Positions 1,538 through 43,857 of a stretch of DNA of 64,000 nt are shown here, one piece after another (within the stretch, counting starts at the first letter, position 1; every line of letters starts with the position of its first letter). Under the pieces are notes generated by a model. That model saw only the letters and a list, made by a program, of their open reading frames with translations. It was not told the DNA's origin and made no database searches. The DNA is from Anatilimnocola floriformis. Its GTDB lineage: Bacteria > Planctomycetota > Planctomycetia > Pirellulales > Pirellulaceae. The stretch is taken from contig NZ_JAMLFW010000001.1 of the NCBI RefSeq assembly GCF_024256385.1, positions 5,890,001 through 5,954,000 of the forward strand, given 5' to 3'. The translations under genes were made by a program, and so were the position numbers.

Positions 1538-1895
1538 GGGGGCGAACTGGATTCGACCGGGTCGCTAGAAGCGTCAGTGGCGTGTCGTGGTTGATCTGTT
1601 GGCCACGTTAAAAGCAGATCACACTTTACTTGCCGAGAGCAATCTCAGCCTTGCAGCCTAGTTAAATAGTCTGCACGGATTGCGGGTCTTCGCCGGAGAG
1701 ACCCAAAAATCCGTTGCCAATTCCGGTTCGCCGCGGGTCATGCTCGAAACGCCCGCGGTTCAATAAGTCTCGAGCTGGTCAAACGGGTAGTGCGCAGTCA
1801 GACGCCCCGGGCGACGACAATTAAATTGATTGCTACACACGTAGAAGCTGCCGTGGAAAGATCGCGGGACGCGGGTTCAATTCCCGCCGCCTCCA
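1538..1895 (+). ncRNA. ssrA: Transfer-messenger RNA (tmRNA)
   Basis: The 5' end GGGGGCGAACTGGATTCGAC is the typical tmRNA start, and GGGGGCG can pair with CGCCTCC at the 3' end to form the tRNA-like acceptor stem. The 3' end carries a T-arm (GCGGGTTCAATTCCCGC) and discriminator A at 1895; CCA is not encoded. The tag reading frame starts at GCA 1614-1616 and encodes ADHTLLAESNLSLAA before TAG 1659-1661. The hydrophobic LAA end fits a protease-targeting tag. The RNA rescues stalled ribosomes with SmpB. Its 3' end is the integration site of island 1, and the integrated copy keeps the tmRNA sequence intact. Confidence 0.93.
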
Positions 1896-32778: not shown

Positions 32779-33139
32779 TGCCGAGCCCCTCGTCGGAGAC
32801 TGAAGGAGCACGAACACATGAAACCAGCACCGTTCGAACCGCAAGCGGTAGGTGCGGCCAAGCGGCGACTATTTCAACGAGTTCCGTACTTCCGAGTGAA
32901 GGTGTCTCGGCGTTGAAATGGCAGTACGAAGGTTGGAGGCACAATGCCTCCACTAGTTTTCGAACATAAGGCGGCAGTCGATCCCAGACCCGACTGACGC
33001 GTTCGAGAGAAGAGCCAGGAGTTGTCAGCAAGTGCCCGTCTGTGCTGCTGATCTGCTGACCATTTGCTGACAGCGGAGGAGCCGGAGTCGTAAGTGGTTG
33101 ATCCGACAACTCGTTACGAGAGGCGTCCCTCTCATTCAA
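32768..33139 (-). CDS. Hypothetical protein starting in the att core
   Basis: A 123-aa frame whose only obvious start is TTG at 33139, inside the 20-bp att core; the true start may be further in. The N-terminus is polar (QPLTTPAPPLSANGQQIS), followed by a helical part (RLPPYVRKLVEALCLQPSYC, LVEIVAAWPHLPLAVRTVLV). It overlaps the gene at 32778, forming a three-gene run with the AAA+ gene. Integration may have trimmed or re-made its 5' end. Confidence 0.5.
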   Translation of the reverse strand: MNERDASRNELSDQPLTTPAPPLSANGQQISSTDGHLLTTPGSSLERVSRVWDRLPPYVRKLVEALCLQPSYCHFNAETPSLGSTELVEIVAAWPHLPLAVRTVLVSCVRAPSVSDEGLGNEQ

Positions 33140-34397
33140 TTCCCGCCGCCTCCATCATGTCACCCTGTGCCACGGGGTGACTGGACACGACGCAACCCTC
33201 GTCTATGACGGGGGTTGTTTCGTTTTCAGATTGCGTCTTTGTGACAGGCGGTGACTCCGAAAGACTGCCAGGGACGGCTGAACTGCAGCGCATTTGCAGC
33301 GCGGGAAGATTGCCCACCGCCTTGGCTTGATCCTCCATCCCGATGTGCGTGTACTTCATCGTCATCTTGATGTCGGTGTGACGGGCGAGCTTCTGAGCCT
33401 CGGGAAGACTGGCACCAGAACGAACGAGCCCGGTGATATGTGAGTGACGGCCGGCAGCGTGGAAGTCAGCGATTCCGTCCTCGTTTTCGTACGGAATTCC
33501 CACCCGCTCCAGATCCTTCTTCACCATTAGCCAGGTCCGGCGTTTTGCCAGCTTAGGGAACAGTACGTCACTGGGTTTCAGTTCCGCAATCCAGCTGCGC
33601 ACCAAAGTGACTAGCTCGGGGTGCATCGGGAGCACGTCAAGCCGACGGTGCTTCGAGCATGCAGCCTCCACGGTGACCGTGGGCGGGTAGGCGTTCAGGT
33701 CGAAGCTGCGGGGCTTCAGGCTTGCGATTTCCTTGCGGCGAAGCCCGGTCATGTAACTGAGAATGTACAGTCGAGCTCGGTGTTCACCTGAGAAACATTG
33801 GATGTCTTCACCACTGTCGCGAGCTGATTGCACGAGCCTTTCTAGATCGCCGGCGTTCAATGCTCGACGCTTGTGGCGAACATCAACAGCTGTGTTAAGT
33901 CTCTCCAAGCCACGGAGTGGACTAGCCAGAAGCCGATCATTCTCGACACACCAGTAGCAGAATGACTCGATGGCCTGGGCATAGTGGTTGTAGGTCTTGT
34001 GACCAATTTCCTCATCGTCGAGCATTTCGGTGAGACTACATTCGACAGCCAGTTTCGAGATATCGAACAACGTCTCAAAATTGCAATCTTTGACGATCCG
34101 CCGGACGCGGCTCATTGTGAGCTTCCAGTGCTTCTCCGAGTTCTTCTTGAGGCTTTTCTCGAATGCTTCAAGATGCTCGGTGAGCGCCGTGCGCCGTTGC
34201 CCGGCGATTTTTTCCTGTTCCGGGTCGATTAGCCCCAGGCGGCGAAGCCTGGCCTCTTCCTCCTTCTTCGCCGCGGCCTGCTCGGTTAGTCCTCGATCCG
34301 TGAATCCTTTCGATGTCCGCCGCTTACCCAGATGGTCGTACCATTGGAACCAATATGGCGATCCTTTCTTCTTGCTCCGCTTGAAAATTGATGCCAT
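33132..34397 (-). CDS. Tyrosine recombinase/integrase of island 2
   Basis: A 421-aa tyrosine recombinase closely related to the island 1 enzyme. Shared elements are the basic N-terminus (KRSKKKGSPYWFQWYDHLGK), TGLRRKEIASL with the first catalytic Arg, DFHAAGRHSH, LARHTD and MKYTHIG with the Tyr nucleophile. The C-terminus ends within the att core (MMEAAGIE), so it is shorter than its paralogue, whose tail continues into tmRNA sequence. The gene reads toward its att site, with its excisionase 34 bp upstream. It indicates that a second, related element inserted at the same tmRNA site. Confidence 0.92.
   Translation of the reverse strand: MASIFKRSKKKGSPYWFQWYDHLGKRRTSKGFTDRGLTEQAAAKKEEEARLRRLGLIDPEQEKIAGQRRTALTEHLEAFEKSLKKNSEKHWKLTMSRVRRIVKDCNFETLFDISKLAVECSLTEMLDDEEIGHKTYNHYAQAIESFCYWCVENDRLLASPLRGLERLNTAVDVRHKRRALNAGDLERLVQSARDSGEDIQCFSGEHRARLYILSYMTGLRRKEIASLKPRSFDLNAYPPTVTVEAACSKHRRLDVLPMHPELVTLVRSWIAELKPSDVLFPKLAKRRTWLMVKKDLERVGIPYENEDGIADFHAAGRHSHITGLVRSGASLPEAQKLARHTDIKMTMKYTHIGMEDQAKAVGNLPALQMRCSSAVPGSLSESPPVTKTQSENETTPVIDEGCVVSSHPVAQGDMMEAAGIE
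33135..33154 (+). repeat. Second att core (junction of islands 1 and 2)
   Basis: TTCAATTCCCGCCGCCTCCA matches the tmRNA 3' end at 1876-1895 exactly over 20 bp. It is the right end of island 1 and the left end of island 2, whose integrase abuts it. The hairpin GTCACCC/GGGGTGAC follows just inside island 2, in the place of the terminator hairpin inside island 1. Confidence 0.85.
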
Positions 34398-34985: not shown

Positions 34986-35372
34986 ATGGCGAAAAAGCGG
35001 CCTAAAAAGGAACCGATCGAGGCCATTCAGTTTCGGCCGGGTGGAAAGCTTGGAGAATTGATTAACGAGTTTGCGGGGATTTGGAGAATATCTCGTGGGG
35101 AGGCAGCGAAACGCTTAACCGCATTGGCGGCGCATAAACTCGACCTGGAGTTTGCTGCCTCTGTCCAGGATCTGGCGGGATGCCTCTATGGAGCCGAGAA
35201 TTTTGTCGACGCTTGTCAAATGGTTTGCGTCATGTTGAACGAGGTTGAATCGACGCCTCAAAGTCAGCAGGTTCAAATCGTGCGTCGTAACGTCGATTTG
35301 TACAAGTCGCTAAAGGGCATCCAGAAAGAAGTCGCTGAGAACCGCGTTTCTGTGAAACTGTACCGCACTTGA
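34986..35372 (+). CDS. Ribbon-helix-helix-like DNA-binding protein
   Basis: A 128-aa protein with a basic start (MAKKRPKKEPIEAIQFRPGG), then LGELINEFAGIWRISRGEAA and KRLTALAAHKL, which fits a ribbon-helix-helix or Arc-like module. A helical C-terminal half contains VDACQMVCVMLNEVE and ends KLYRT. It has a strong GGGAGGTG ribosome binding site and a palindromic operator candidate. It lies just outside the left 17-bp direct repeat, so it belongs to the island 2 backbone rather than the RT module. A regulator of excision or of the neighbouring genes is likely. Confidence 0.6.
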   Translation: MAKKRPKKEPIEAIQFRPGGKLGELINEFAGIWRISRGEAAKRLTALAAHKLDLEFAASVQDLAGCLYGAENFVDACQMVCVMLNEVESTPQSQQVQIVRRNVDLYKSLKGIQKEVAENRVSVKLYRT

Positions 35373-35466
35373 TAGGTTGTCAGTGAACATCCCCACGGTC
35401 AGAGTCAGCTTTAAAGTATCCATTGAGCCATGCAAATCATTTGACGGTTGTTGGTAACGATCATAT

Positions 35467-35483
35467 CGGTAATTAAGAACCGA
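35467..35483. repeat. Left 17-bp direct repeat bounding the RT module
   Basis: CGGTAATTAAGAACCGA occurs here and again at 40823-40839, with unrelated flanks. The unit itself has inverted ends (CGGT...ACCG). The spacing of 5.36 kb brackets the helicase-like gene, the RT and the repeat array. It may be a target duplication, a recombination site or a shared regulatory site. Confidence 0.6.
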
Positions 35484-35508
35484 GTTGACTCGCAGCAAAG
35501 GTTAGAAC

Positions 35509-36996
35509 ATGTCTCGACGCGGTAGTCCTGCTGAACTTCGGCTCAATCGTAGCGGAAACACTTTGAGCGCTGACGCCGGAGTGCATCTATTCGCATCGCG
35601 CATGCAGACGGATCAGTTAGTTTTCAATCCTCGTTTGCAACAGGTCGTCTCGCAGACTGAGTCGTTGATTCCCGTTGACGGTCTCCAGAGAGCGAATGCG
35701 GGGCTTGAGATGGCGATTCGATTCATCGGGGTTCTGAGCGGCTTCGTGGTGAGCACGCAAGAATTCGGTGCTGGGCGTGCAACGCTTTCTGAACCGGCTT
35801 GTGAAATACGTCCCACCGTTCCTCCGATAGATCGTGCGCTAGTGGATTTCGTCTATCGAAATGAGCTCGGCCTCGTGAGGGTCGGAAATGGCGTGGATGC
35901 TGCATGCCTAGTCGCGCAGCTAGTTCGAGCAGTCAGCGAAGCGACGTTCGTGATCATAGTCGGGACTCACGCAGAGAAGCGAATGTGGAGAAGACGACTT
36001 CGTTCTCTCGAAATATCCTTCAAAGCTCAGGCAATCGACTGTTTGGGGCAATCCGTAAAGCAGGTCGTCGTGGCTACGCCGGCTGGTGCTGCGGAAGATG
36101 AAGTTAGTTTCCACTCTCGCCATATCGCGATCTTCCCGAATGCAATCGCTTCCGTTGGTGAACGATTTCAGGACATGCTTCTTTGTGCGGACGCAAGGGC
36201 CAGGCTTATCGGATTTGTACGCACCGATGTGAAAGAGTCGCCTCGCGAGGAAGACCTGCTCCGCGCGCAGTTTGGATTTGCCGAACTGACGATCCCAGCA
36301 CATGGTCGAGTTCTCACCGACATTCGAACAGTACGTGTGCTCTTTAGAACGAAGCCGCTGCCTCACAACTGGAATGGACGGCAACTTCGCCAAAAAGGCA
36401 TTTGGTGTCACCCCGTCCGCAATCGTTGGATTGCACGGCTTGCGAAGATCATCTGCCATCAAGACTGGTGCGCCTTCAGAGAATGGCAGCCGATCTTAGC
36501 CGAGCAACTGATTGACCAAATTTCACCAAATGTGATCGTCATGGCTGAATCGGTTCCACAGGCAATTGCGATCGCAAGGCGTATGGAGGAGGCACCTTTA
36601 GTTATTGACTCGCAGTTCAATCCCGATCTGCTCGAAGCATCGGATCGTGAGCTGATGCAGCGGCGTCCGATCGGTTGGAATATTGACGGACCGCTTATTG
36701 CTACGCCGGTCGGCCTAACGAGGATATCGCCGCGCCGAGCGCAGACCATCATCTGGGCAGGGTCGGGACCTTACGCACCTCCCCTCCCAGTTGAGTATCT
36801 GTCGGGACGAAACACTGATCAGCACCGAGTAACGCTAATTGACTTCGACGATCAACACCATGCCGTGCTGCGTAGACAAAGCCAACTGCGAGGAGCTGCG
36901 TATCGAAACGCTGGCTGGTGTGCGCCTGCAGCCGATCCTGAGGCTGCGAGAATTCGCCAGTTCTTAGCATCACGCCCAATGAGGAGCCGACGATGA
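35509..36996 (+). CDS. Degenerate SF2-helicase-like protein, partner of the RT
   Basis: A 495-aa protein from the ATG at 35509, sharing ATGA with the RT gene. I read a two-RecA-domain layout without catalytic residues. RVGNGVDAAC (124-133) sits where Walker A GxGKT should be, with no Lys. FVIIVGTHAEKRMWRRRL (147-164) resembles motif Ia. RHIAIFPN and RLIGFVRTD (204-240) resemble motif II/III strands without DExH. The second domain has NVIVMAESVPQAIAIARRM (341-359), LIATPVGLTRISPRRAQTII (396-415) and EYLSGRN (429-435), like motifs IV to VI. I infer a nucleic-acid-binding pseudo-helicase. Alternatively it is a novel fold; profile comparison would decide. Confidence 0.6.
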   Translation: MSRRGSPAELRLNRSGNTLSADAGVHLFASRMQTDQLVFNPRLQQVVSQTESLIPVDGLQRANAGLEMAIRFIGVLSGFVVSTQEFGAGRATLSEPACEIRPTVPPIDRALVDFVYRNELGLVRVGNGVDAACLVAQLVRAVSEATFVIIVGTHAEKRMWRRRLRSLEISFKAQAIDCLGQSVKQVVVATPAGAAEDEVSFHSRHIAIFPNAIASVGERFQDMLLCADARARLIGFVRTDVKESPREEDLLRAQFGFAELTIPAHGRVLTDIRTVRVLFRTKPLPHNWNGRQLRQKGIWCHPVRNRWIARLAKIICHQDWCAFREWQPILAEQLIDQISPNVIVMAESVPQAIAIARRMEEAPLVIDSQFNPDLLEASDRELMQRRPIGWNIDGPLIATPVGLTRISPRRAQTIIWAGSGPYAPPLPVEYLSGRNTDQHRVTLIDFDDQHHAVLRRQSQLRGAAYRNAGWCAPAADPEAARIRQFLASRPMRSRR

Positions 36997-38141
36997 GCGG
37001 GTACGGTAGGCGAAGTGCTCTTATTAATGCCAACGTACGTCGGGAGGAAGCGCGAATCAATTCGACTTCGTGTCCCCACGTTTTCGCATCGGGGCAAGAA
37101 CTGCGTGTCCGCGATGCGCTGCGTCTTACGTTTGAGCATGTGCTAGAGCCAGAATACCTGCTCGGACTATTTCAGGAACTGAAACAAAATTCGGGACCCG
37201 CTCCCGGCGTCGATGGCTTCAGCTACGCGGACTATTCGATCACCGAGATCGCAGCTGTGTTAAGGGAAGTTTGTTGGCTTGCTCACGCTGGTAGATACGT
37301 TCCTTCACCGAGCCTAGTTGTCCCAATCCCAAGGCCAGATAGAGCACTTCGTGAACTTCGGCTTCGGACGATCGTAGACCGAATCATCTCGACTGCTGTT
37401 AATCGGATCCTTTCGAAAGCAGCGGAGCGCATACTTCAGTCGTGTTGCCTCGCGTACCGGCCAGGCATCAGCACTTGGGATATGCTGGTAGCAATTGAGT
37501 TCGCCGTGTTGCACCGGGAAAGCTATTTCTTCCAGCAGGACGATATCCGCAGGGCATTCGACAACGTGCCACTCGCGCTGGCGATTGCTGCCTGTCAGTC
37601 ACTAATGTCTGATGTTCGGCTGCGTCAGTTGATCGAGGCGGTGCTGCGCGGTCACGACACTTGCCGAAATATCGGCATTGAGCAGGGCGATCCGTTGAGC
37701 CCACTCGCACTCAATCTTGTAATGCACTCTGTTCTGGACTTGCCGCTAACAGCGGCCGCCCAGAACGGTTTTCCACTGTACCTCAGATACGCCGACAACC
37801 TCGTCGTATTGGGGCGCAGTGCGCTCGACGTAGCCGAAAGCCTCGGCCTAGCCCGTCGAAGGTTGGCGGAGCACGGAATGACCTTGAAGGGAGAAGACGG
37901 GGGCCTAACGCATCTACGCAGACCAGGAGCGTCGGTAAAGGTCTTAGGTAGCAAAATCCACTACAGGCGGCGTTTTCAAGTAATTGCTCACTGGCAAATT
38001 TGCGATGAAAAGATCTTGGTTCAAGGTCGGAAACGCTTTGTACAGTTGCCTTTGCGATCCGACAGCAGTGGTGATGAGCACACTTTGAGTTGCTCACGCG
38101 TAAATAGACTGCGGCATAGAAATCCTCGGATGAGGGGGTGA
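36993..38141 (+). CDS. Reverse transcriptase with YADN active site
   Basis: A 382-aa retroelement-type RT. Palm and finger motifs are visible: SGPAPGVDGF (67-76, RT1-like), VVPIPRPDRALRELRLRTIV (109-128), SCCLAYRPGIST (150-161), motif A QQDDIRRAFDNV (181-192, catalytic Asp 184), motif B EQGDPLSPLALNLVMH (230-245), motif C RYADNLVVL (265-273) and motif D/E near HGMTLKGEDGGLTHL and VKVLGSKI. The second Asp of YxDD is Asn 269. There is no HNH, protease or large maturase domain, and the thumb is short. It overlaps the helicase-like gene by 4 bp. It is not clearly a retron, group II intron or DGR enzyme by context; an unknown-group/defence RT is my best guess. Confidence 0.88.
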   Translation: MSGYGRRSALINANVRREEARINSTSCPHVFASGQELRVRDALRLTFEHVLEPEYLLGLFQELKQNSGPAPGVDGFSYADYSITEIAAVLREVCWLAHAGRYVPSPSLVVPIPRPDRALRELRLRTIVDRIISTAVNRILSKAAERILQSCCLAYRPGISTWDMLVAIEFAVLHRESYFFQQDDIRRAFDNVPLALAIAACQSLMSDVRLRQLIEAVLRGHDTCRNIGIEQGDPLSPLALNLVMHSVLDLPLTAAAQNGFPLYLRYADNLVVLGRSALDVAESLGLARRRLAEHGMTLKGEDGGLTHLRRPGASVKVLGSKIHYRRRFQVIAHWQICDEKILVQGRKRFVQLPLRSDSSGDEHTLSCSRVNRLRHRNPRMRG

Positions 38142-38429
38142 GTACGGGCGGCGGCGTCGGCGCTGTCCGGTTGTTCCGTACGCGCGACGCTCGACCGTAT
38201 GTGGACCGTGCGCGTGTAACAATACCGGCCATTCGTTTTAAACCGTGGTCCGGGACACCCGCAACCGTGGCCCTTGGAACAAGTGCTTCACCACTATTTG
38301 ACTTCTCAGCTAGCGGAGGCGGATACTTAAAGAAAACACCCCGCCGCGCGCCCCATGGGAGCGGCGCGTAGAGGGTTTGATCCTGGGGGCGGTGGTCACT
38401 TGGAACTGCGGTGGGTCGGAGCGAAACTA
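38142..38429 (+). ncRNA. Candidate structured RNA downstream of the RT
   Basis: No gene is seen, but inverted repeats are dense directly after the RT stop. GTACGG (38142-38147) pairs with CCGTAC (38176-38181); ACGCGC (38180-38185) with GCGCGT (38210-38215); CGCGCC (38347-38352) with GGCGCG (38363-38368). AACCGTGG is directly repeated nearby. Other RT systems have their template RNA beside the RT gene, so an RNA here is plausible. The evidence is pairing potential only. Confidence 0.35.
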
Positions 38430-38515
38430 CCCCTCTCATTCAAATCGCGCTCCTCCGAACGGTTGAAAACACCAGCGTCAGATTCACAACAGCTGCCGCC
38501 TTTAAATAGGTGTGG
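38430..38515 (-). pseudogene. Frameshifted fragment of the small membrane protein family
   Basis: Read on the minus strand, KAAAVVNLTLVF continues after a one-base shift as FNRSEERDLNE. This matches PAAVVLYFSLVFFNRLEERDL in the frame at 40230-40484, and the DNA is also visibly similar (for example ATCGCGCTCCTCC in both). It is a decayed partial copy, so this region has been duplicated or invaded. Confidence 0.6.
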
Positions 38516-39213
38516 CTCCTGATTAGCAAAACAGAGTGAGTCTCAACACCGACATCTCGGCGACTTTAGACGACGGTTGAAGTGGCAAGTCAGTCGCCGC
38601 CCGTTTCCCCAAACTCACACGTTGGACAGCGGCAGCTTTGCCATCGCATGGCTCCATTGGAAGCCCGCTTTCGGTATCGCCGCAGTCCCATTGACCCCCA
38701 GAAATCTCTCGCCTCGTGTTCAGGGAGCCCTGGGAGCCTCGAAAAGGATCCAGAGACCTATGTCGCCTCGTCGAATGGGGCTAGCGCTCAATAGAACGCT
38801 TCCTAGGAGTTCCTTGCCCTCGTGCCTCGCGGTGCCGTGTCGTCTCGTGGTAGTGGGGCTGTGTTCTCCTTACACAGCCGTCCCCAAATGCTGGAGCGCG
38901 AGCAGGCCCCGCGTAAGCGGGCCTGCTCGCATAGCGACAGTATACGTATAGTACATACGATAATTTTATCCTATGTAAAAACACATGCTGCAATTCTTAT
39001 TCGTAGCGGTTAAGTCTTTTCTAGCACGCCACTTGCGACGCGACGCAAAACGCATCGCACTCTATTTATGCTTTCAGCAAATCCTTTGGCTGCAATAGCT
39101 TGCGGCAAAAGCCCCCCTTCTGTTTTTGAGGCTCATTTTTGGGGTAGGGGGGTGTATTTAGCCTATGTAACCAAATGCCAGTAGGAATGCGTCCCTAGAA
39201 AGAGTAGGTCTCC
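38516..39213. other. Gene-free stretch with two strong hairpins
   Basis: No convincing gene on either strand. The stretch holds the twin hairpins at 38855-38930, an A/T-rich segment with promoter-like composition at about 38938-38990, and a C-run/G-run inverted pair around 39112-39150. Apart from these I see nothing. Confidence 0.5.
38855..38930 (+). ncRNA. Two adjacent strong hairpins (candidate structured RNA)
   Basis: Hairpin 1: GGCTGTGT (38857-38864) pairs with ACACAGCC (38872-38879) and is extended by GGGG/CCCC after a 2-nt bulge. Hairpin 2: GCGAGCAGGCCC from 38898 pairs with GGGCCTGCTCGC ending at 38930, closed by a GTAA-containing loop, about 14 bp with one bulge. Two such stems 12 bp apart in gene-free DNA between an RT and a repeat array suggest an RNA element or recombination/terminator structure. 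No T-tract follows, which argues against a simple terminator. Confidence 0.4.
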
Positions 39214-39396
39214 ATGCAAGTCAGTTTGACGTTCGGTGCCCAGATGCGGGACGATAACGGCGAAGTCCGCACCCTTAGCGACAAAGAGCTGTACGGCGTC
39301 CTGATGCCGTTCTTCGCCCGCCTCGCCACGGTTTGTGCTCCAAGGGCAGAGCACAACAGGTCCAGCGGAAAATCTGGCTTAATCGACCCAAGGTAA
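39214..39396 (+). CDS. Small hypothetical protein, doubtful
   Basis: A 60-aa frame from an ATG preceded by AGTAGG. The first 45 residues (MQVSLTFGAQMRDDNGEVRT, LSDKELYGVLMPFFARLATV) look protein-like; the end does not. It may be a truncated gene. The stretch from here to 39617 holds nothing else I can support. Confidence 0.3.
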   Translation: MQVSLTFGAQMRDDNGEVRTLSDKELYGVLMPFFARLATVCAPRAEHNRSSGKSGLIDPR

Positions 39397-39617
39397 GAAC
39401 CATTTAGCACTTGCGTCCGGGTCTATGGTGACGCACTTGCCTGGGCTCCGTCGCAGAGGTGGGAGGGTTGCCAGGAAAGTGATAAACAGGGCAGCGGCAG
39501 AGAGAGAGAGGGATTGGGCGCCTCAGGCCTCCTAGCGCCACCCCTCTGCAAGTCCGCAATGGTGGCCGCCATCCGTCGGCCCGGCGGAAATCCGGCCTCT
39601 GCCGCGATACCGCCCGT

Positions 39618-40098
39618 GACCACCTGCGCCGACCACCTGCGCCGACCACCTGCGCCGACCACCTGCGCCGACCACCTGCGCTGACCACCTGCGCCGACCA
39701 CCTGCGCCGACCACCTGCGACCGCGCTGACCACCTGCGCCGACCACCTGCGCCGACCACCTGCGCTGACCACCTGCGCCGACCACCTGCGCCGACCACCT
39801 GCGCCGACCACCTGCGCCGACCACCTGCGCCGACCACCTGCGCCGACCACCTGCGCTGACCACCTGCGCCGACCACCTGCGCTGACCACCTGCGCCGACC
39901 ACCTGCGCCGACCACCTGCGCCGACCACCTGCGCCGACCACCTGCGCTGACCACCTGCGCCGACCACCTGCGCCGACCACCTGCGCCGACCACCTGCGCT
40001 GACCACCTGCGCCGACCACCTGCGCCGACCACCTGCGCCGACCACCTGCGCCGACCACCTGCGCCGACCACCTGCGCCGACCACCTGCGCCGACCACC
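39618..40098. repeat. 13-bp tandem repeat array, 36 full copies
   Basis: The unit is GACCACCTGCGCC. Seven perfect-length units run from 39618, then one 19-bp variant (39709-39727, with six extra bases ACCGCG-like), then 28 more 13-bp units to 40091 and a partial GACCACC. The only recurring substitution is C to T at position 13 (units starting 39670, 39754, 39845, 39871, 39936 and 39988, plus the 19-bp unit). There are no spacers, so it is not CRISPR. Because 13 is not a multiple of 3 and the unit has no minus-strand stop, all three minus frames are open, an artefact. The array lies 1.5 kb downstream of the RT inside the direct repeats. Confidence 0.97.
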
Positions 40099-40169
40099 CT
40101 TGCACGCAGGGTAGCGCCGCCCTGGTTCCTAAGCCGATTGGAGGGTCGGATAGCTAACAAAAATCACCC

Positions 40170-40200
40170 TGCCGCACCACTCCAACGGAGCAGTGCGGCA
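40170..40200. other. Strong hairpin after the repeat array
   Basis: TGCCGCAC (40170-40177) pairs with GTGCGGCA (40193-40200), with CTCC/GGAG pairing inside. It lies 72 bp after the array and 30 bp before the 3' end of the minus-strand membrane-protein frame, so it may terminate that gene or form part of a structured transcript. Confidence 0.5.
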
Positions 40201-40229
40201 AGGCGTTTGAACACTCGTGCGCGAGGCGG

Positions 40230-40484
40230 CTACCAGGGCCGGCTGCGGATCACACCTCGGAAATCCCTCAGATCGCGCTCCTCCAACCGGTTAAAAAACA
40301 CCAAGCTGAAGTACAGTACAACCGCCGCCGGCATCCACCCCGAGCACCCGAGGTACGGGGTGCAGATCAGGGCGGAACCAAGCACTACAAACGCGATGAA
40401 TCCAAAGTGCCGCGCGCCGTCAAACGGCACCATGCGAGCCTCGGCGGCGGCGGTGGCCGCGCGACTGGTCGCGGCGGCGCTCAC
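40230..40484 (-). CDS. Small membrane protein
   Basis: An 84-aa frame with a GTG-type start; an internal MVPFDGARHFG is an alternative. One or two hydrophobic segments (FGFIAFVVLGSALICTPYLG and MPAAVVLYFSLVFF) are followed by the charged tail FNRLEERDLRDF. A frameshifted relative lies at 38430-38515, which supports a real protein family. Upstream (40485-40822) another minus frame (to 40821) is open but shows no family, so that 338-bp stretch is left uncalled. Confidence 0.5.
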   Translation of the reverse strand: MSAAATSRAATAAAEARMVPFDGARHFGFIAFVVLGSALICTPYLGCSGWMPAAVVLYFSLVFFNRLEERDLRDFRGVIRSRPW

Positions 40485-40822
40485 GCCACGTCGTGATCAT
40501 GTGCCAGGCCTTGCGCATCAGCATGTGAAGGCCGTCTTCCAAAAATCTCAACTGCGCGCGGAATCTGTCTCGATTGCGATGAGAACAGTGCATTACAACT
40601 CCTTTCAGAAAGTGGATACGAGTCGACGACCGGACTACCCTCGCGACCAGCGAAACCACGTAGTCGACCAGTGTGTGGCCTCCAGCCCAAGCTGTTCCAC
40701 CACTGCCGCCGACACGATCAAGCTCCAGGTTACGACGATCGCCATGAAAGCACTTTGCCACACAAGCAGCGTCGTACCAGCACATGAAGTGGAGTGTCTC
40801 AAGCTCTTTGCTCCTTAACAAA

Positions 40823-40839
40823 CGGTAATTAAGAACCGA
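40823..40839. repeat. Right 17-bp direct repeat bounding the RT module
   Basis: CGGTAATTAAGAACCGA, identical to 35467-35483. It ends at the base just before the stop codon of the Cas4-like gene (40840), so insertion at this point would leave that gene intact. Confidence 0.6.
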
Positions 40840-41688
40840 TCACCCGGGCCATTTGCGGCACGGGTCACGATAGGGACATCCTGGGCAGTTCATTTGAGAG
40901 GGGGCAGGAAAGAAGTGTGCTGCCTTGATGGCTTGCCAGACGCGTTCTACAACTCGCTTAGTGCGGTCGAGTTGAGCTTGCTCAAACGTCACACGGTGGA
41001 CCTCAACGCTGACCTCCTTCGTTTTGGTGAGCACGCCGAACTGCAACCGCAGGCGTTTGCTCGGCGCGAAGTCCTTCGCGAGTTCTCCGTACAAAAGAAG
41101 CTGAGCGGCCGACTCTTCGACCTGATCCTGCGTGTACTTCGACCGCGATGTTTTCCAATCGCTGACCAGTAACTCGGTCGGCGTTTCGAGGATCAGATCG
41201 ACTTTGCCGAGCAGATCGGGAAGGCCCGGAACAAGCTGGCCTCGCAATGTCTCCTCGATCGCCAGAATCCGGCCGGCCGGCTTGGCTAGGTCGCTCTGTG
41301 CGAATGCGGTGATCATTCTTTTTGCAAGATCGTCGAACGAATCGGCTTGTTCATCCTTGCTAAACCGTATAGGCAACGACTGGGCCTGCCATTCCAGCTG
41401 GTATTCACGCTCCATTTCCTCCGGCGTCGCGGCCTTGCTGGATTCCAGCAATTTACGGAAGTGATGCTCGATTGCCCGATGGATGGCACTGCCGAAGACT
41501 AATGCCGCGGAGAGGGTTTCTTCGGGGATTCCAGCGATGTACCGGAAGAAGTAACGCAACGGGCACTGCTGATAGGTGCGGATTGCCGAGAAGGAGATGT
41601 AATCCCGCGGCGCCACCGGTGGGACAGGTTGCGGCGGGGCTCGTGCGCTGGGCGCTTCAACGCGGGCGTCAAAGAGTAAAGCAGTCAT
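40840..41688 (-). CDS. Cas4/RecB-like PD-(D/E)XK nuclease (island 2 copy)
   Basis: A 282-aa paralogue of the 11485-12345 protein. It has ISFSAIRTYQQCPLRYFFRY with the first Cys, the catalytic LGKVDLIL and LLVSDWKTSRS (Asp, Asp-x-Lys), a QLLLYGELA helix and the C-terminal cluster MNCPGCPYRDPCRKW. DNA-end processing is the likely role. The next gene upstream ends 3 bp away and has the same partner architecture as in island 1, which shows that the two islands share a backbone. Confidence 0.82.
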   Translation of the reverse strand: MTALLFDARVEAPSARAPPQPVPPVAPRDYISFSAIRTYQQCPLRYFFRYIAGIPEETLSAALVFGSAIHRAIEHHFRKLLESSKAATPEEMEREYQLEWQAQSLPIRFSKDEQADSFDDLAKRMITAFAQSDLAKPAGRILAIEETLRGQLVPGLPDLLGKVDLILETPTELLVSDWKTSRSKYTQDQVEESAAQLLLYGELAKDFAPSKRLRLQFGVLTKTKEVSVEVHRVTFEQAQLDRTKRVVERVWQAIKAAHFFPAPSQMNCPGCPYRDPCRKWPG

Positions 41689-41691
41689 GGG

Positions 41692-42243
41692 TTAGTGATT
41701 GGCTCCGTTGCCAGAGGTGGTGGAATTCAGCTCGTCGATTGCGGCGCTGGCATCGGCGATCGACAGTTCCGATGCCAAGCGGATGCCGTACTTCTCATGC
41801 AACCACTGGTCGATGTTGAGCTGCAGGCGATTGCCGATGGCTTCGAGAGCACGAACTTGGCTGGCAGTTGCCTTGCGGCCGCTCGTCCGCCGCTGGCCGC
41901 TGGCCGGTGGATTCGCAGCTTGGCTGGTTCGGGTGTGACCGTTGGCAGTTCCATTGCCCCGATAGTGGCCACTGCTGTTCTGGCCTTGCGGATGCACATT
42001 GCTATTGTGCTCGCCCGCGGCCACTTGCGGCGCCTGTTCTGCGGTCTGGTTGCGGTGCAACTCGTCCTGCACGGCCTGTTTGCAGGCGCTGAATGCGTTC
42101 TTGACTTGGCGGTGAAAGCCTTCGAGATCGGTGTTTAGCAGTGACGCATCCGCCTCATATTCGACATGGCATGAGGCACCGAGACTGCCGTAATCGCGCA
42201 GGCCGACTTTCTTACTAAGGCCGACATTTACTTTGAGCGGCAT
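41692..42243 (-). CDS. Element-backbone protein paired with Cas4-like nuclease (island 2 copy)
   Basis: A 183-aa protein: beta-rich N-terminus (PLKVNVGLSKKVGLRDYGSL), helical middle (FHRQVKNAFSACKQAVQDEL), a Gly/Asn-rich linker and a C-terminal module (TASQVRALEAIGNRLQLNID, LSIADASAAIDEL). It matches the layout of 12593-13129 and starts with the same KVNVGLS.KV pattern. Probably a single-strand-binding or recombination accessory; not proven. Confidence 0.6.
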   Translation of the reverse strand: MPLKVNVGLSKKVGLRDYGSLGASCHVEYEADASLLNTDLEGFHRQVKNAFSACKQAVQDELHRNQTAEQAPQVAAGEHNSNVHPQGQNSSGHYRGNGTANGHTRTSQAANPPASGQRRTSGRKATASQVRALEAIGNRLQLNIDQWLHEKYGIRLASELSIADASAAIDELNSTTSGNGANH

Positions 42244-42310
42244 GAAATGCTCCGTGGTTGTTTTGAGGATGAAGTGTCTGTGACCACGCAGACGACGAGC
42301 GATTTACAGG

Positions 42311-43768
42311 TTAGGCGACGGCCTGCAGCTGTTTGAGCGACGCCAAGGCCAGCTTTAACGACTTCTGGCCACGCTTCTCGGTCTTGATCGTTCTGATTAA
42401 TTCCTTGCTGCTGGCCAGTGCGGCACGCAGCTGATCGCGGAGCGAGATCGCCACCTCCAACGATGTGGTTGCTTTGCCGTTGTTGCTGGCCCGTTTGCGG
42501 CGGCGCACAGTTGGCTCGGAGGCAGGTTGGGGCGACATCACCGTTGTCGAGGACTGTGATGAGGCGACGGGTACAGGTTGATTCGCAATGCGATTCACGG
42601 GTGTTGTCCTTTGAGGAATAGTTGGCAAATTAGTACGGTGGCCGTAATCGAGTGGGGACTCGATGCGAACGCAATCGTCGGTGGGCTTGATCGCGTCCTT
42701 GGGCGAAAGCAACATCCAGAGATACGTCCGCGAGTTATCTCGGGCGACTGCGGGCGACGCTTTGTCGGGCAGATGGATTTCGCTATAGCCCATCGCGGCG
42801 GCCCGGGCCAGGAACTGGCGATCTGTGCAGATGCGGATGTCATCTCCTTGCTTGATCGAATTGCTGAGGATCATCTCGGCCGGGCGCGGTGTGCTGATCG
42901 ACGCGGCGCGCAACACGACGCTGCCGTTCAAATCCAGGGTCAATTCGCGGTGCGTGGCTCCGTTAGGGAGCCGATGCAAGTTCTCGGCCATGAACCGGGC
43001 ATCCGCCAGCGACAGCCGCAGGGTTGACTTGCAGTAGTCAGTGGACGGGATGATGCTGTCCACGTCGGGGAATCGGCCCTCGCGCTCAGTGCCGAGCCAG
43101 TAGGTCCAGGGCCCGATCTCAAACACCACCGTGGCGACGCCCTTGTCATCCGGCAGGTTACCGATGCGCACTGGCTCCGCCGGCAGCTCTTTGCAGGTGA
43201 AGAACCGGCTGGGCTGGATGAGCACGGCCTGGTCGCAACCGAACTGAAACCCAGTTTGCCTGAGCATCTGCCGGCCATCGGTCGCGGCGAGGGCGCCGTC
43301 CTGACGCAGTTGCACGCAGCCGAGCGCGTACCGTTTGCTCTCCACGTCGGTTGTTTCATAGGCATCCCGCAGGGCGGTCAGCAGTCCCGGCCCGTTCTGG
43401 ACGAACGTCGCCGGCAATGCCGGGAACGCAGGTGCAACGGGGAACGGCTCGGGAGCGTCGTATTCCAGGTCACGAAAGACGCCATTTTCCTGCCAGCTCG
43501 CACCCACAACACCGGTACGCCTGGTGTTGAGGAACACGGGCTCGGCTTTGGAACCCTGCACATCATCAAGCACCTGCAGCGGCAGTAGCAGGCTCTCGGC
43601 GTCCTGGGGATGCCGATCGTGATACCGGAGGGATTGGTTGGCACCTTGCACGTCGACAACCAAGCCGTTGTTGCCAGTGCGAACCGCGATCATGCCGATC
43701 TGGCGGCCGAAGGTACGCTTAATGACCAAACGCAGCAGCTTGGCAAGTTGACGAGTAATTTGGATCAA
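42311..43768 (-). CDS. Sliding-clamp-like (DnaN-related) protein
   Basis: About 485 aa if started at TTG 43768, which has GGAG nine bases upstream; an ATG-type start to 43831 is possible. The middle resembles a beta clamp: SKRYALGCVQLRQDGALAAT followed by DGRQML, later EGRFPDVDSIIP and LTLDLNGSVVLRA. Clamp domains are usually about 120 aa and tripled to 370; here about 300 residues fit, followed by a polar linker and a helical basic tail (SLEVAISLRDQLRAALASSK). An element-encoded clamp or clamp mimic for replication is inferred. A clamp-loader-like ATPase is in island 1 (31184-32038). Confidence 0.6.
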   Translation of the reverse strand: MIQITRQLAKLLRLVIKRTFGRQIGMIAVRTGNNGLVVDVQGANQSLRYHDRHPQDAESLLLPLQVLDDVQGSKAEPVFLNTRRTGVVGASWQENGVFRDLEYDAPEPFPVAPAFPALPATFVQNGPGLLTALRDAYETTDVESKRYALGCVQLRQDGALAATDGRQMLRQTGFQFGCDQAVLIQPSRFFTCKELPAEPVRIGNLPDDKGVATVVFEIGPWTYWLGTEREGRFPDVDSIIPSTDYCKSTLRLSLADARFMAENLHRLPNGATHRELTLDLNGSVVLRAASISTPRPAEMILSNSIKQGDDIRICTDRQFLARAAAMGYSEIHLPDKASPAVARDNSRTYLWMLLSPKDAIKPTDDCVRIESPLDYGHRTNLPTIPQRTTPVNRIANQPVPVASSQSSTTVMSPQPASEPTVRRRKRASNNGKATTSLEVAISLRDQLRAALASSKELIRTIKTEKRGQKSLKLALASLKQLQAVA

Positions 43769-43857
43769 GTGTGTGGCTCCGCAGAGATAAGGGGATTGGG
43801 AAAACAATCGGGGCGGCAGCACGATTGCCACCGCCCATGAGTAGCAGCACGCAACAG

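Follow-up and report, generated by a model that had tools for sequence, protein, structure and literature searches.

Introduction

Bacterial reverse transcriptases (RTs) have repeatedly turned out to be immune enzymes with unexpected chemistry. Among those of uncharacterised function are the three planctomycete group II-like RTs known as G2L5, which have no intron according to the sections of the literature that deal with them (PMC4244168, PMC8934634, PMC4424553). The locus described here lies in a 64,000-nucleotide stretch of the planctomycete Anatilimnocola floriformis (contig NZ_JAMLFW010000001.1, positions 5,890,001 to 5,954,000), hereafter the window, and consists of a gene for a helicase-like protein, named PA, followed by the gene of a group II-like RT. 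This locus is rather probably a 3'-truncated copy of a conserved two-protein RT system of planctomycetes, domesticated and perhaps defensive. To the known bacterial RTs, the PA-RT family adds a near-constant partner predicted to be a pseudo-helicase, a clade-wide change in the active site and an RNA candidate in one subclade.

PA and RT as a Conserved Pair

The original prediction, made from the letters of the window, described a two-gene operon in which a helicase-like gene and an RT gene share an ATGA. This is borne out by the coordinates of the two open reading frames (ORFs), which overlap by these four nucleotides, and by the Pfam RVT_1 match of the RT (E 2e-15). The identical overlap, in which the RT start begins on the last base of the final sense codon of PA, is found at loci L004, L006, L050, L052, L071, L072, L073, L119 and L138. 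At 45 of 56 PA loci the RT lies downstream on the same strand (including L005, with a cut-off RT), at five both proteins are encoded in one ORF (among them L053, a broken copy), and at one the RT is on the opposite strand (L148). No RT was found at the other five, namely L125 (at a contig end), L130 (with a broken PA), L131, L140 and L147. At L140 (7797-9158), PA is in frame with a C-terminal piece of RT, an internal deletion of a PA-RT unit. Seen from the RT side, 57 matches at E<=1e-60 occur in 44 of 397 genomes, and 49 of them have a PA profile match within 2.5 kb; L053, L198 (a PA fragment on the opposite strand), L199 and L200 raise the PA-adjoined matches to 53 of 57. The strong RT matches without PA are L195, which is cut by a contig edge, and L194, L196 and L197. 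For comparison, PA was found at none of 20 group II-type RT loci whose flanks were searched up to 1.5 kb. An additional ORF of 1091 aa (L201) holds both domains, and PA-RT fusion has probably arisen at least twice, since the fused ORFs of L058/L075 and of L132/L134 fall in separate clades of the tree. Taken together, the gene arrangements show that PA and RT are a conserved two-gene unit kept together in many planctomycetes. The proposal of a helicase-like partner and an RT as a unit thus stands as far as the pairing in homologues and the lack of a family match for the partner in the Pfam, PADLOC and NCBIfam scans are concerned; its extension to the array, the hairpins and the bracketing repeats of the window is not supported.

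A first contig scan with a single RT query gave no matches, and a scan with an RT alignment gave five loci, all planctomycete by title. PA profile A2 matched in eight of 392 genomes of the phylum, and at E<=1e-5 profile A3, built from 15 PAs, had matches in 47 genomes of the class (397 searched) and in 11 of the family (241 searched). Loci L050-L054, L056 and L058 were first found via the RT, and the others of the 56 via PA or in the own genome. Excluded from the counts were L118 and L121 (the same loci as L058 and L056), and L055, with a weak RT match and no PA, stands outside the 56. Of the 69 PA rows of the A3 class search, those at G556:C449, G562:C22, G562:C18:43482, G589:2517898, G595, G655, G310 and G658:C7 were also left out. 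Viral contigs gave no relatives with the two alignments tried, and the PA of L050 had no match in plasmids and phages. The RT of L004 matched plasmid records that, among the 15 listed of at least 5000, are mostly annotated as group II introns.

In A. floriformis itself, a second PA-RT pair with a full-length RT (L004) is located at G000:C1:3073125-3075922, its PA being 57% and its RT 63% identical to those of the window, and a third pair is a cut-off copy (L005). Comparison with the paralogue makes the state of the window copy apparent. Homology of the window RT to its 63%-identical paralogue breaks off sharply at about 37958 (blastn/tblastn), the RT residues beyond about 322 are without homology to relatives, and the missing 115 or so residues, which correspond to the thumb, have no credible match downstream in the window, other frames included. 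Judged from its sequence, the window RT is 3'-truncated and has lost its thumb.

The Helicase-Like Partner

PA matches no Pfam family above the cut-off (the best sub-threshold family is DUF4142, E 0.13) and no PADLOC or NCBIfam family, and a sequence search of the PDB with PA gave nothing credible. Its AlphaFold2 model (predicted local distance difference test, pLDDT, 83; predicted template modelling score, pTM, 0.82) has archaeal and eukaryotic XPB as top Foldseek matches (E 8e-13), and the fold of PA is predicted to be XPB-like at the level of the fold class. The motif names applied to PA are those of superfamily 2 (SF2) helicases. In all rows of the PA motif table, GK[ST] is absent at motif I and motif II is degenerate. 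By regular expression, with fragments included, DE[AC]H occurs in none of 63 PA rows and GK[ST] in four of 63, always outside motif I, and the QxxGRxxR string of the motif VI arginine finger is not in the window PA and occurs in four of the 63 rows, irrespective of position. The conserved points of PA are an RN pair and a D..D pattern with an Arg near the C-terminus. Because Walker A is absent at motif I, motif II is degenerate and the modelled fold is XPB-like, PA is predicted to be a pseudo-helicase.

The Reverse Transcriptase

The best PADLOC model for the window RT is the generic PDLC01136 (1.3e-32), the Drt9 model being weaker (E 2e-15). This generic model is also the top one for four relatives, so that specific UG models rank below it for these RTs. 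Relatives L071, L076 and L078 have UG17 models among their weaker matches; for the window RT, UG17 lies outside the best 25 models listed. The model of group II intron RTs and maturases (TIGR04416) gives 113 bits against a cut-off of 300, and that of retron RTs (NF038233) 32 bits against a cut-off of 235. The closest solved RT by sequence profile is the GsI-IIC group II intron RT (1.7e-32), which is also the nearest by fold (E 3.7e-21). In the RT tree, from which the broken L005 and L053 were excluded, a branch of 1.01 (support 100/100) divides the PA-partnered family from 18 group II-type RTs. The RT of L014, from the genus of the window and chosen as outgroup, landed among the family rows with Asp at motif C, and a PA fragment (L198) was then found beside it.

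The active site of this family is altered and retained at the same time. Across 16 aligned RTs there is no variation at the Asp of motif A, the QG of motif B or the first Asp of motif C. At the second Asp position of motif C, 32 of the 49 family RTs in the tree carry Asn and the other 17 have Asp. The Asn-type pattern is [YF]xDN, with Phe for Tyr in few rows, and the 32 Asn-type RTs, including that of the window, are monophyletic with support 98/97. It might be thought that such an RT is catalytically dead and that PA-RT is a structural, nucleic-acid-binding regulator, in keeping with the Asn at motif C in most family RTs and with the degenerate motor motifs of PA. We regard this as unlikely: the invariant residues just named speak against it, and GDN-type active sites work in some RNA polymerases. 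The ratio of non-synonymous to synonymous substitution rates (dN/dS) is 0.16-0.40 in ten unsaturated pairwise comparisons (PA between two own-genome copies was saturated), which shows that PA and RT genes are both under purifying selection in close pairs. At L076 (6495-8252), the C-terminal part of an Asp-type family RT matches RNase H weakly and below the cut-off (E 8.6e-4).

A Candidate RNA After the RT

In most of seven close pairs, conservation directly beyond the RT stop roughly equals or exceeds that of the gene end. At L076/L122 and L126/L127 this conserved stretch may hold other genes, and at L071/L072 conservation falls after about 150 nt. In one subclade, three consecutive hairpins directly follow the RT. 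MAFFT alignments across this subclade misaligned the hairpins and were discarded for a covariance model, trained on five well-aligned rows (L071, L072, L119, L138 and L074). Run against 53 sources (762,621 bases), this model ranked L051 (E 0.0026, 18.9 bits) and L052 (E 0.17, 13.2 bits) highest of the matches outside its training set, both just after the RT, where they were expected. In the 7-row alignment, which is fitted to the model, 98.4% of 123 cells are paired and four pairs are changed on both sides; none of 500 shuffles reaches the paired percentage or the covariation score, and slid structures pair 33-67%. Outside this set, L054 gives 4 bits only, at the right place, and first hairpins resembling those of the subclade are seen in L004 and L056. 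The SL1 motif occurs at seven of 27 Asn-type loci against 0.25 expected, and at none of 12 Asp-type loci, a count that is illustrative, as the pattern was chosen after looking. A candidate 3' RNA is therefore well supported in one subclade and suggested elsewhere.

Proposed Role of the System

The coupling of two proteins, the degenerate ATPase motifs, the altered and retained polymerase site, the 3' RNA of the subclade, the mobile surroundings of several copies and the patchy presence together point towards a domesticated RT whose complex makes a small nucleic-acid product, used most plausibly in conflicts with elements or phages. In such a complex, PA would probably no longer hydrolyse ATP and would act as a nucleic-acid-binding scaffold or sensor. 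The RT could plausibly make a short complementary DNA (cDNA), for which a neighbouring RNA, for instance the 3' hairpin element, would probably be the template. By analogy with other domesticated bacterial RTs, the system may, with similar plausibility, defend the host, or the element that carries it, from phages or competing elements. More tentatively, these steps would amount to a three-part planctomycete retro-system, in which an ATPase-dead XPB-like pseudo-helicase and a YxDN RT act with a template RNA located after the RT, and the cDNA acts in conflicts with phages or elements.

Several observations weigh against this interpretation, which remains rather probable as a whole and rests on sequence and predicted structure. 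Foldseek matches of PA have a whole-chain template modelling (TM) score of about 0.3 and a root-mean-square deviation of about 15-22 A, which support the fold class alone. Some RTs lose their activity when Asn takes the place of the second motif C Asp, so the enzyme here may be dead or altered. No PA was seen at three RT loci (L194, L196 and L197). The 3' RNA is shown for a single subclade, at seven loci of six genomes; the number of its pair types is not above that of shuffles (131 of 500 reach it), and a second model, with L051 and L052 added, found nothing significant in 29 other sources. The folding excess after the RT stop is modest, with a mean z of -1.9 at 23 Asn-type loci, compared with -1.36, -0.58 and -0.8 further down, -1.43 inside the gene and -1.13 on the reverse strand; at 11 Asp-type loci the mean z after the stop is -0.63. 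Finally, the defence context is thin, and it was assessed without a control set. In 150 neighbouring proteins of 44 loci (from 165, nine large ones and some duplicates being excluded), the first 25 of 159 PADLOC models listed include six weak methyltransferase matches and single matches to Cas1, Old and DrmD.

The same neighbours bear on another possibility, that the PA-RT pair is replication or mobility machinery of its carriers, or a retroelement in its own right, and not a cargo for conflict. All three own-genome copies have a tyrosine-recombinase-like gene within about 4 kb (that of the window by Pfam, the other two by eye), five of the 150 neighbours match Phage_integrase among the first 25 of 64 Pfam families listed, and several copies are near genes of a shared element backbone (partly by eye). 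In addition, two G2L5 RTs have been reported in transposons in the part of the literature that describes them (PMC8934634), which also weighs against a domesticated, defensive role. However, the own-genome copies are 57-63% identical, with no sign of recent copying, conserved termini were not seen, and the carriers vary between loci. Mobility machinery is thus rather improbable, if somewhat less so than a dead RT, and a domesticated system remains the preferred interpretation.

The Window Copy and Its Surroundings

The features of the window that bear on the system are collected in Table 1.

Table 1. Features of the PA-RT locus and its carrier element (window positions).
Feature	Position	Strand	Basis
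PA, degenerate SF2 (XPB-type) helicase-like protein, 495 aa (predicted)	35509..36996	+	ORF list, no library family, AlphaFold2 and Foldseek, motif table
RT, group II-like reverse transcriptase, motif C YADN, 382 aa	36993..38141	+	Pfam RVT_1 2e-15, alignments, tree
Homology breakpoint against paralogous RT (approximate)	37958		blastn/tblastn
Low-coding DNA downstream of RT	38142..40822		Genome comparison, folding
Perfect hairpin	38898..38930		Repeat search, folding; no significant match to RNA model of relatives
13-bp tandem array, 36.5 copies, outside the conserved system	39618..40098		Tandem Repeats Finder (TRF)
Left copy of CGGTAATTAAGAACCGA, leader dyad CGGTAA-N6-ACC upstream of PA	35467..35483	+	
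Right copy of CGGTAATTAAGAACCGA dyad	40823..40839	+	
Tyrosine recombinase of carrier integrative element	33132..34397	-	Phage_integrase 1.3e-16
att-like repeat at left of carrier element, copy of transfer-messenger RNA (tmRNA) 3' end	33135..33154	+	

The original prediction had also noted some 2.7 kb of almost gene-free DNA after the RT, with strong hairpins and a 36-copy array of 13 bp, and had suggested a functional link (RNA template, repeat synthesis or phage defence). The low coding content was confirmed, and TRF found 36.5 copies of GACCACCTGCGCC with a score of 866; the long minus-strand ORFs across the array are a by-product of the stop-free 13-mer. Apart from the array, this DNA has no match elsewhere in the genome and one short internal repeat. 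Copies of 30 nt (87%) at 38440-38469 and 40268-40297 flank the array, and as their minus-strand readings are much alike they are perhaps remnants of one duplicated small gene. As for the hairpins, the one at 38898-38930 has perfect arms of 12 nt, and the 120-nt interval at 38862 folds with a z of -6.8; it shows no significant match to the RNA candidate of some relatives. The whole 2.7 kb gives a mean z of -0.79 on the plus and -0.52 on the minus strand, with three of 43 intervals below -3, compared with -0.11 and -0.20, and one of 42, in a coding control. With filters off, the RNA model gives no significant match in the window: the best (7.6 bits, E 0.077 for 5.6 kb) is on the minus strand inside another gene, and the next (6.9 bits, E 0.13) lies over the 38898 hairpin. 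Devoid of a thumb and of a recognisable 3' RNA, the window copy of PA-RT is probably non-functional.

The array could be imagined as product or template of the RT, written by a telomerase-like or DRT10-like enzyme and copied back into the chromosome. It begins 1.5 kb downstream of the RT, and DRT10 RTs are described, in the part of the report devoted to them, as making 9-nt tandem-repeat cDNA from a non-coding RNA (PMC12632851). On the other hand, the unit is confined to the array of the window, since all 34 overlapping matches of a two-unit pattern (up to 2 mismatches) in the genome are inside it, and the RT beside it has no thumb. Homologous PA-RT pairs were also examined for nearby repeats, as the prediction itself had proposed. 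Sequence of at least 2 kb downstream is available for 48 of the 56 loci, the window included, and no comparable array is present at the 47 others or around the paralogue in the same genome. Among 58 loci (two duplicates included), TRF found a downstream short-unit array of more than four copies in the window alone; its other arrays were the CRISPR array downstream at L051, a 3.5-copy run of 11 bp at L123 and small upstream arrays. The idea of an RT product or template was accordingly rejected as extremely improbable. The array is outside the system because no comparable one exists at the 47 other loci, its presence beside the window pair is most likely a coincidence, and the proposed functional link is not supported by the comparison. 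At L134 (9567-9930), a 24-bp array of 15 copies is located upstream of the fused PA-RT gene.

A similar fate befell the identical 17-bp repeats said to bracket the module. Both copies were found, and they are unlikely to be the ends of an element; the dyad recurs upstream of PA in nine relatives. The core, GGTAATTAAGAACC, is also present upstream of the paralogous PA, as a single copy there (three exact copies genome-wide), so that describing the 17-mers as mere borders of a mobile unit falls short. CGGT-N8-ACC[GA] occurs within 350 nt upstream of PA at ten of 50 loci against 1.5 expected, figures that are illustrative because this pattern, too, was chosen after looking; the window and nine relatives are clear cases, L141 is a poor one, and the copy of L052 lies at about 415 nt. 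Among 14 loci inspected, a CGGTAA-type copy downstream of the RT was found in the window alone, and L071 has a looser match, CGGTATCG...ACCAC, 1.3 kb downstream of its RT. Direct repeats that are identical on both sides might suggest that the 5.36 kb between them is a cassette excised at the dyad by a tyrosine recombinase, but the 14 loci have no other such downstream copy and the paralogue has one copy in all, which makes this very improbable. Transposon or cassette ends were also judged unlikely from the position of the core and from the leader-like dyad of the relatives. A promoter or an operator of the PA-RT operon is the most fitting interpretation of the dyad, and the right copy is perhaps the leftover leader of another or rearranged PA-RT copy. 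Like the array, the paired 17-mers are not working parts of the PA-RT system.

The module plausibly lies within an integrative element. The genome has three exact copies of a 20-bp sequence from the 3' end of the tmRNA: one in the tmRNA itself (window 1876-1895), one where the integrase gene ends (33135-33154) and one about 79 kb further right, at G000:C1:6002144. This suggests two integrative elements in tandem at the tmRNA, the second of about 79 kb and carrying the PA-RT module. Beside it, at 40840-43831, there are a PDDEXK nuclease gene (Pfam) and two neighbours that recur, by DNA match, beside the third copy L005; a 506-aa protein in this interval has the look of a sliding clamp (by eye only), and PDDEXK-like genes were seen by eye near L050 and L072. 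In Planctomycetales bacterium 10988 (L051:8368-16928), an RT with a broken PA stands next to a CRISPR array and cas genes; L052, an intact locus, belongs to this bacterium as well.

Comparison With Known Systems

No published account of a PA-RT pair was found in literature searches of a limited collection. The statement that no described RT system has this combination holds in that the pair did not show the defining features examined for group II introns, retrons, diversity-generating retroelements (DGRs), CRISPR-associated RTs or a specific UG group; the combination with the array is most likely coincidental. An Rfam scan of the window at gathering thresholds found the tmRNA only, and no intron ribozyme. 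Among the repeats listed for 35000-41500 of the window there is no DGR pair of template and variable repeat with A-specific changes. A partnership with cas1/cas2 is not seen either, one of the 150 neighbouring proteins of 44 loci matching Cas1, at L051.

Several systems share part of the features of PA-RT. PA is predicted to be in the fold class of XPB/Rad25 and RadD-type SF2 helicases, without their GK[ST] at motif I or their DE[AC]H. The RT/maturase of group II introns is the closest solved RT (GsI-IIC), whereas the window has no intron, the TIGR04416 score is below the cut-off and a long branch lies between. DRT9 and the other UG/Abi RTs have the RT domain in common with the family, the Drt9 model being weaker than the generic one, and we know of no XPB-like partner among them. 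DRT10/UG17 resembles PA-RT in combining an RT, a partner protein and a non-coding RNA, and its tandem repeats call the array of the window to mind; however, DRT10 is partnered by a SLATT protein and its repeats consist of cDNA, according to the relevant part of the report (PMC12632851).

The likeliest known name for the family is G2L5. Its members (ZP_01854760, ZP_01851752 and gi 87308561, in Planctomyces (Gimesia) maris and Blastopirellula marina) are, in the sections describing them, planctomycete, group II-like and intronless, and the PA-RT family has a member in a Gimesia metagenome-assembled genome (L058). Those sections differ from the present findings in that a partner, an Asn at motif C and an RNA all go unmentioned, and G2L5 is not a supported group there. 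Compared by description only, the PA-RT family possibly includes these orphan RTs, and with one intact PA-RT locus the function of a little-studied planctomycete RT group becomes directly testable.

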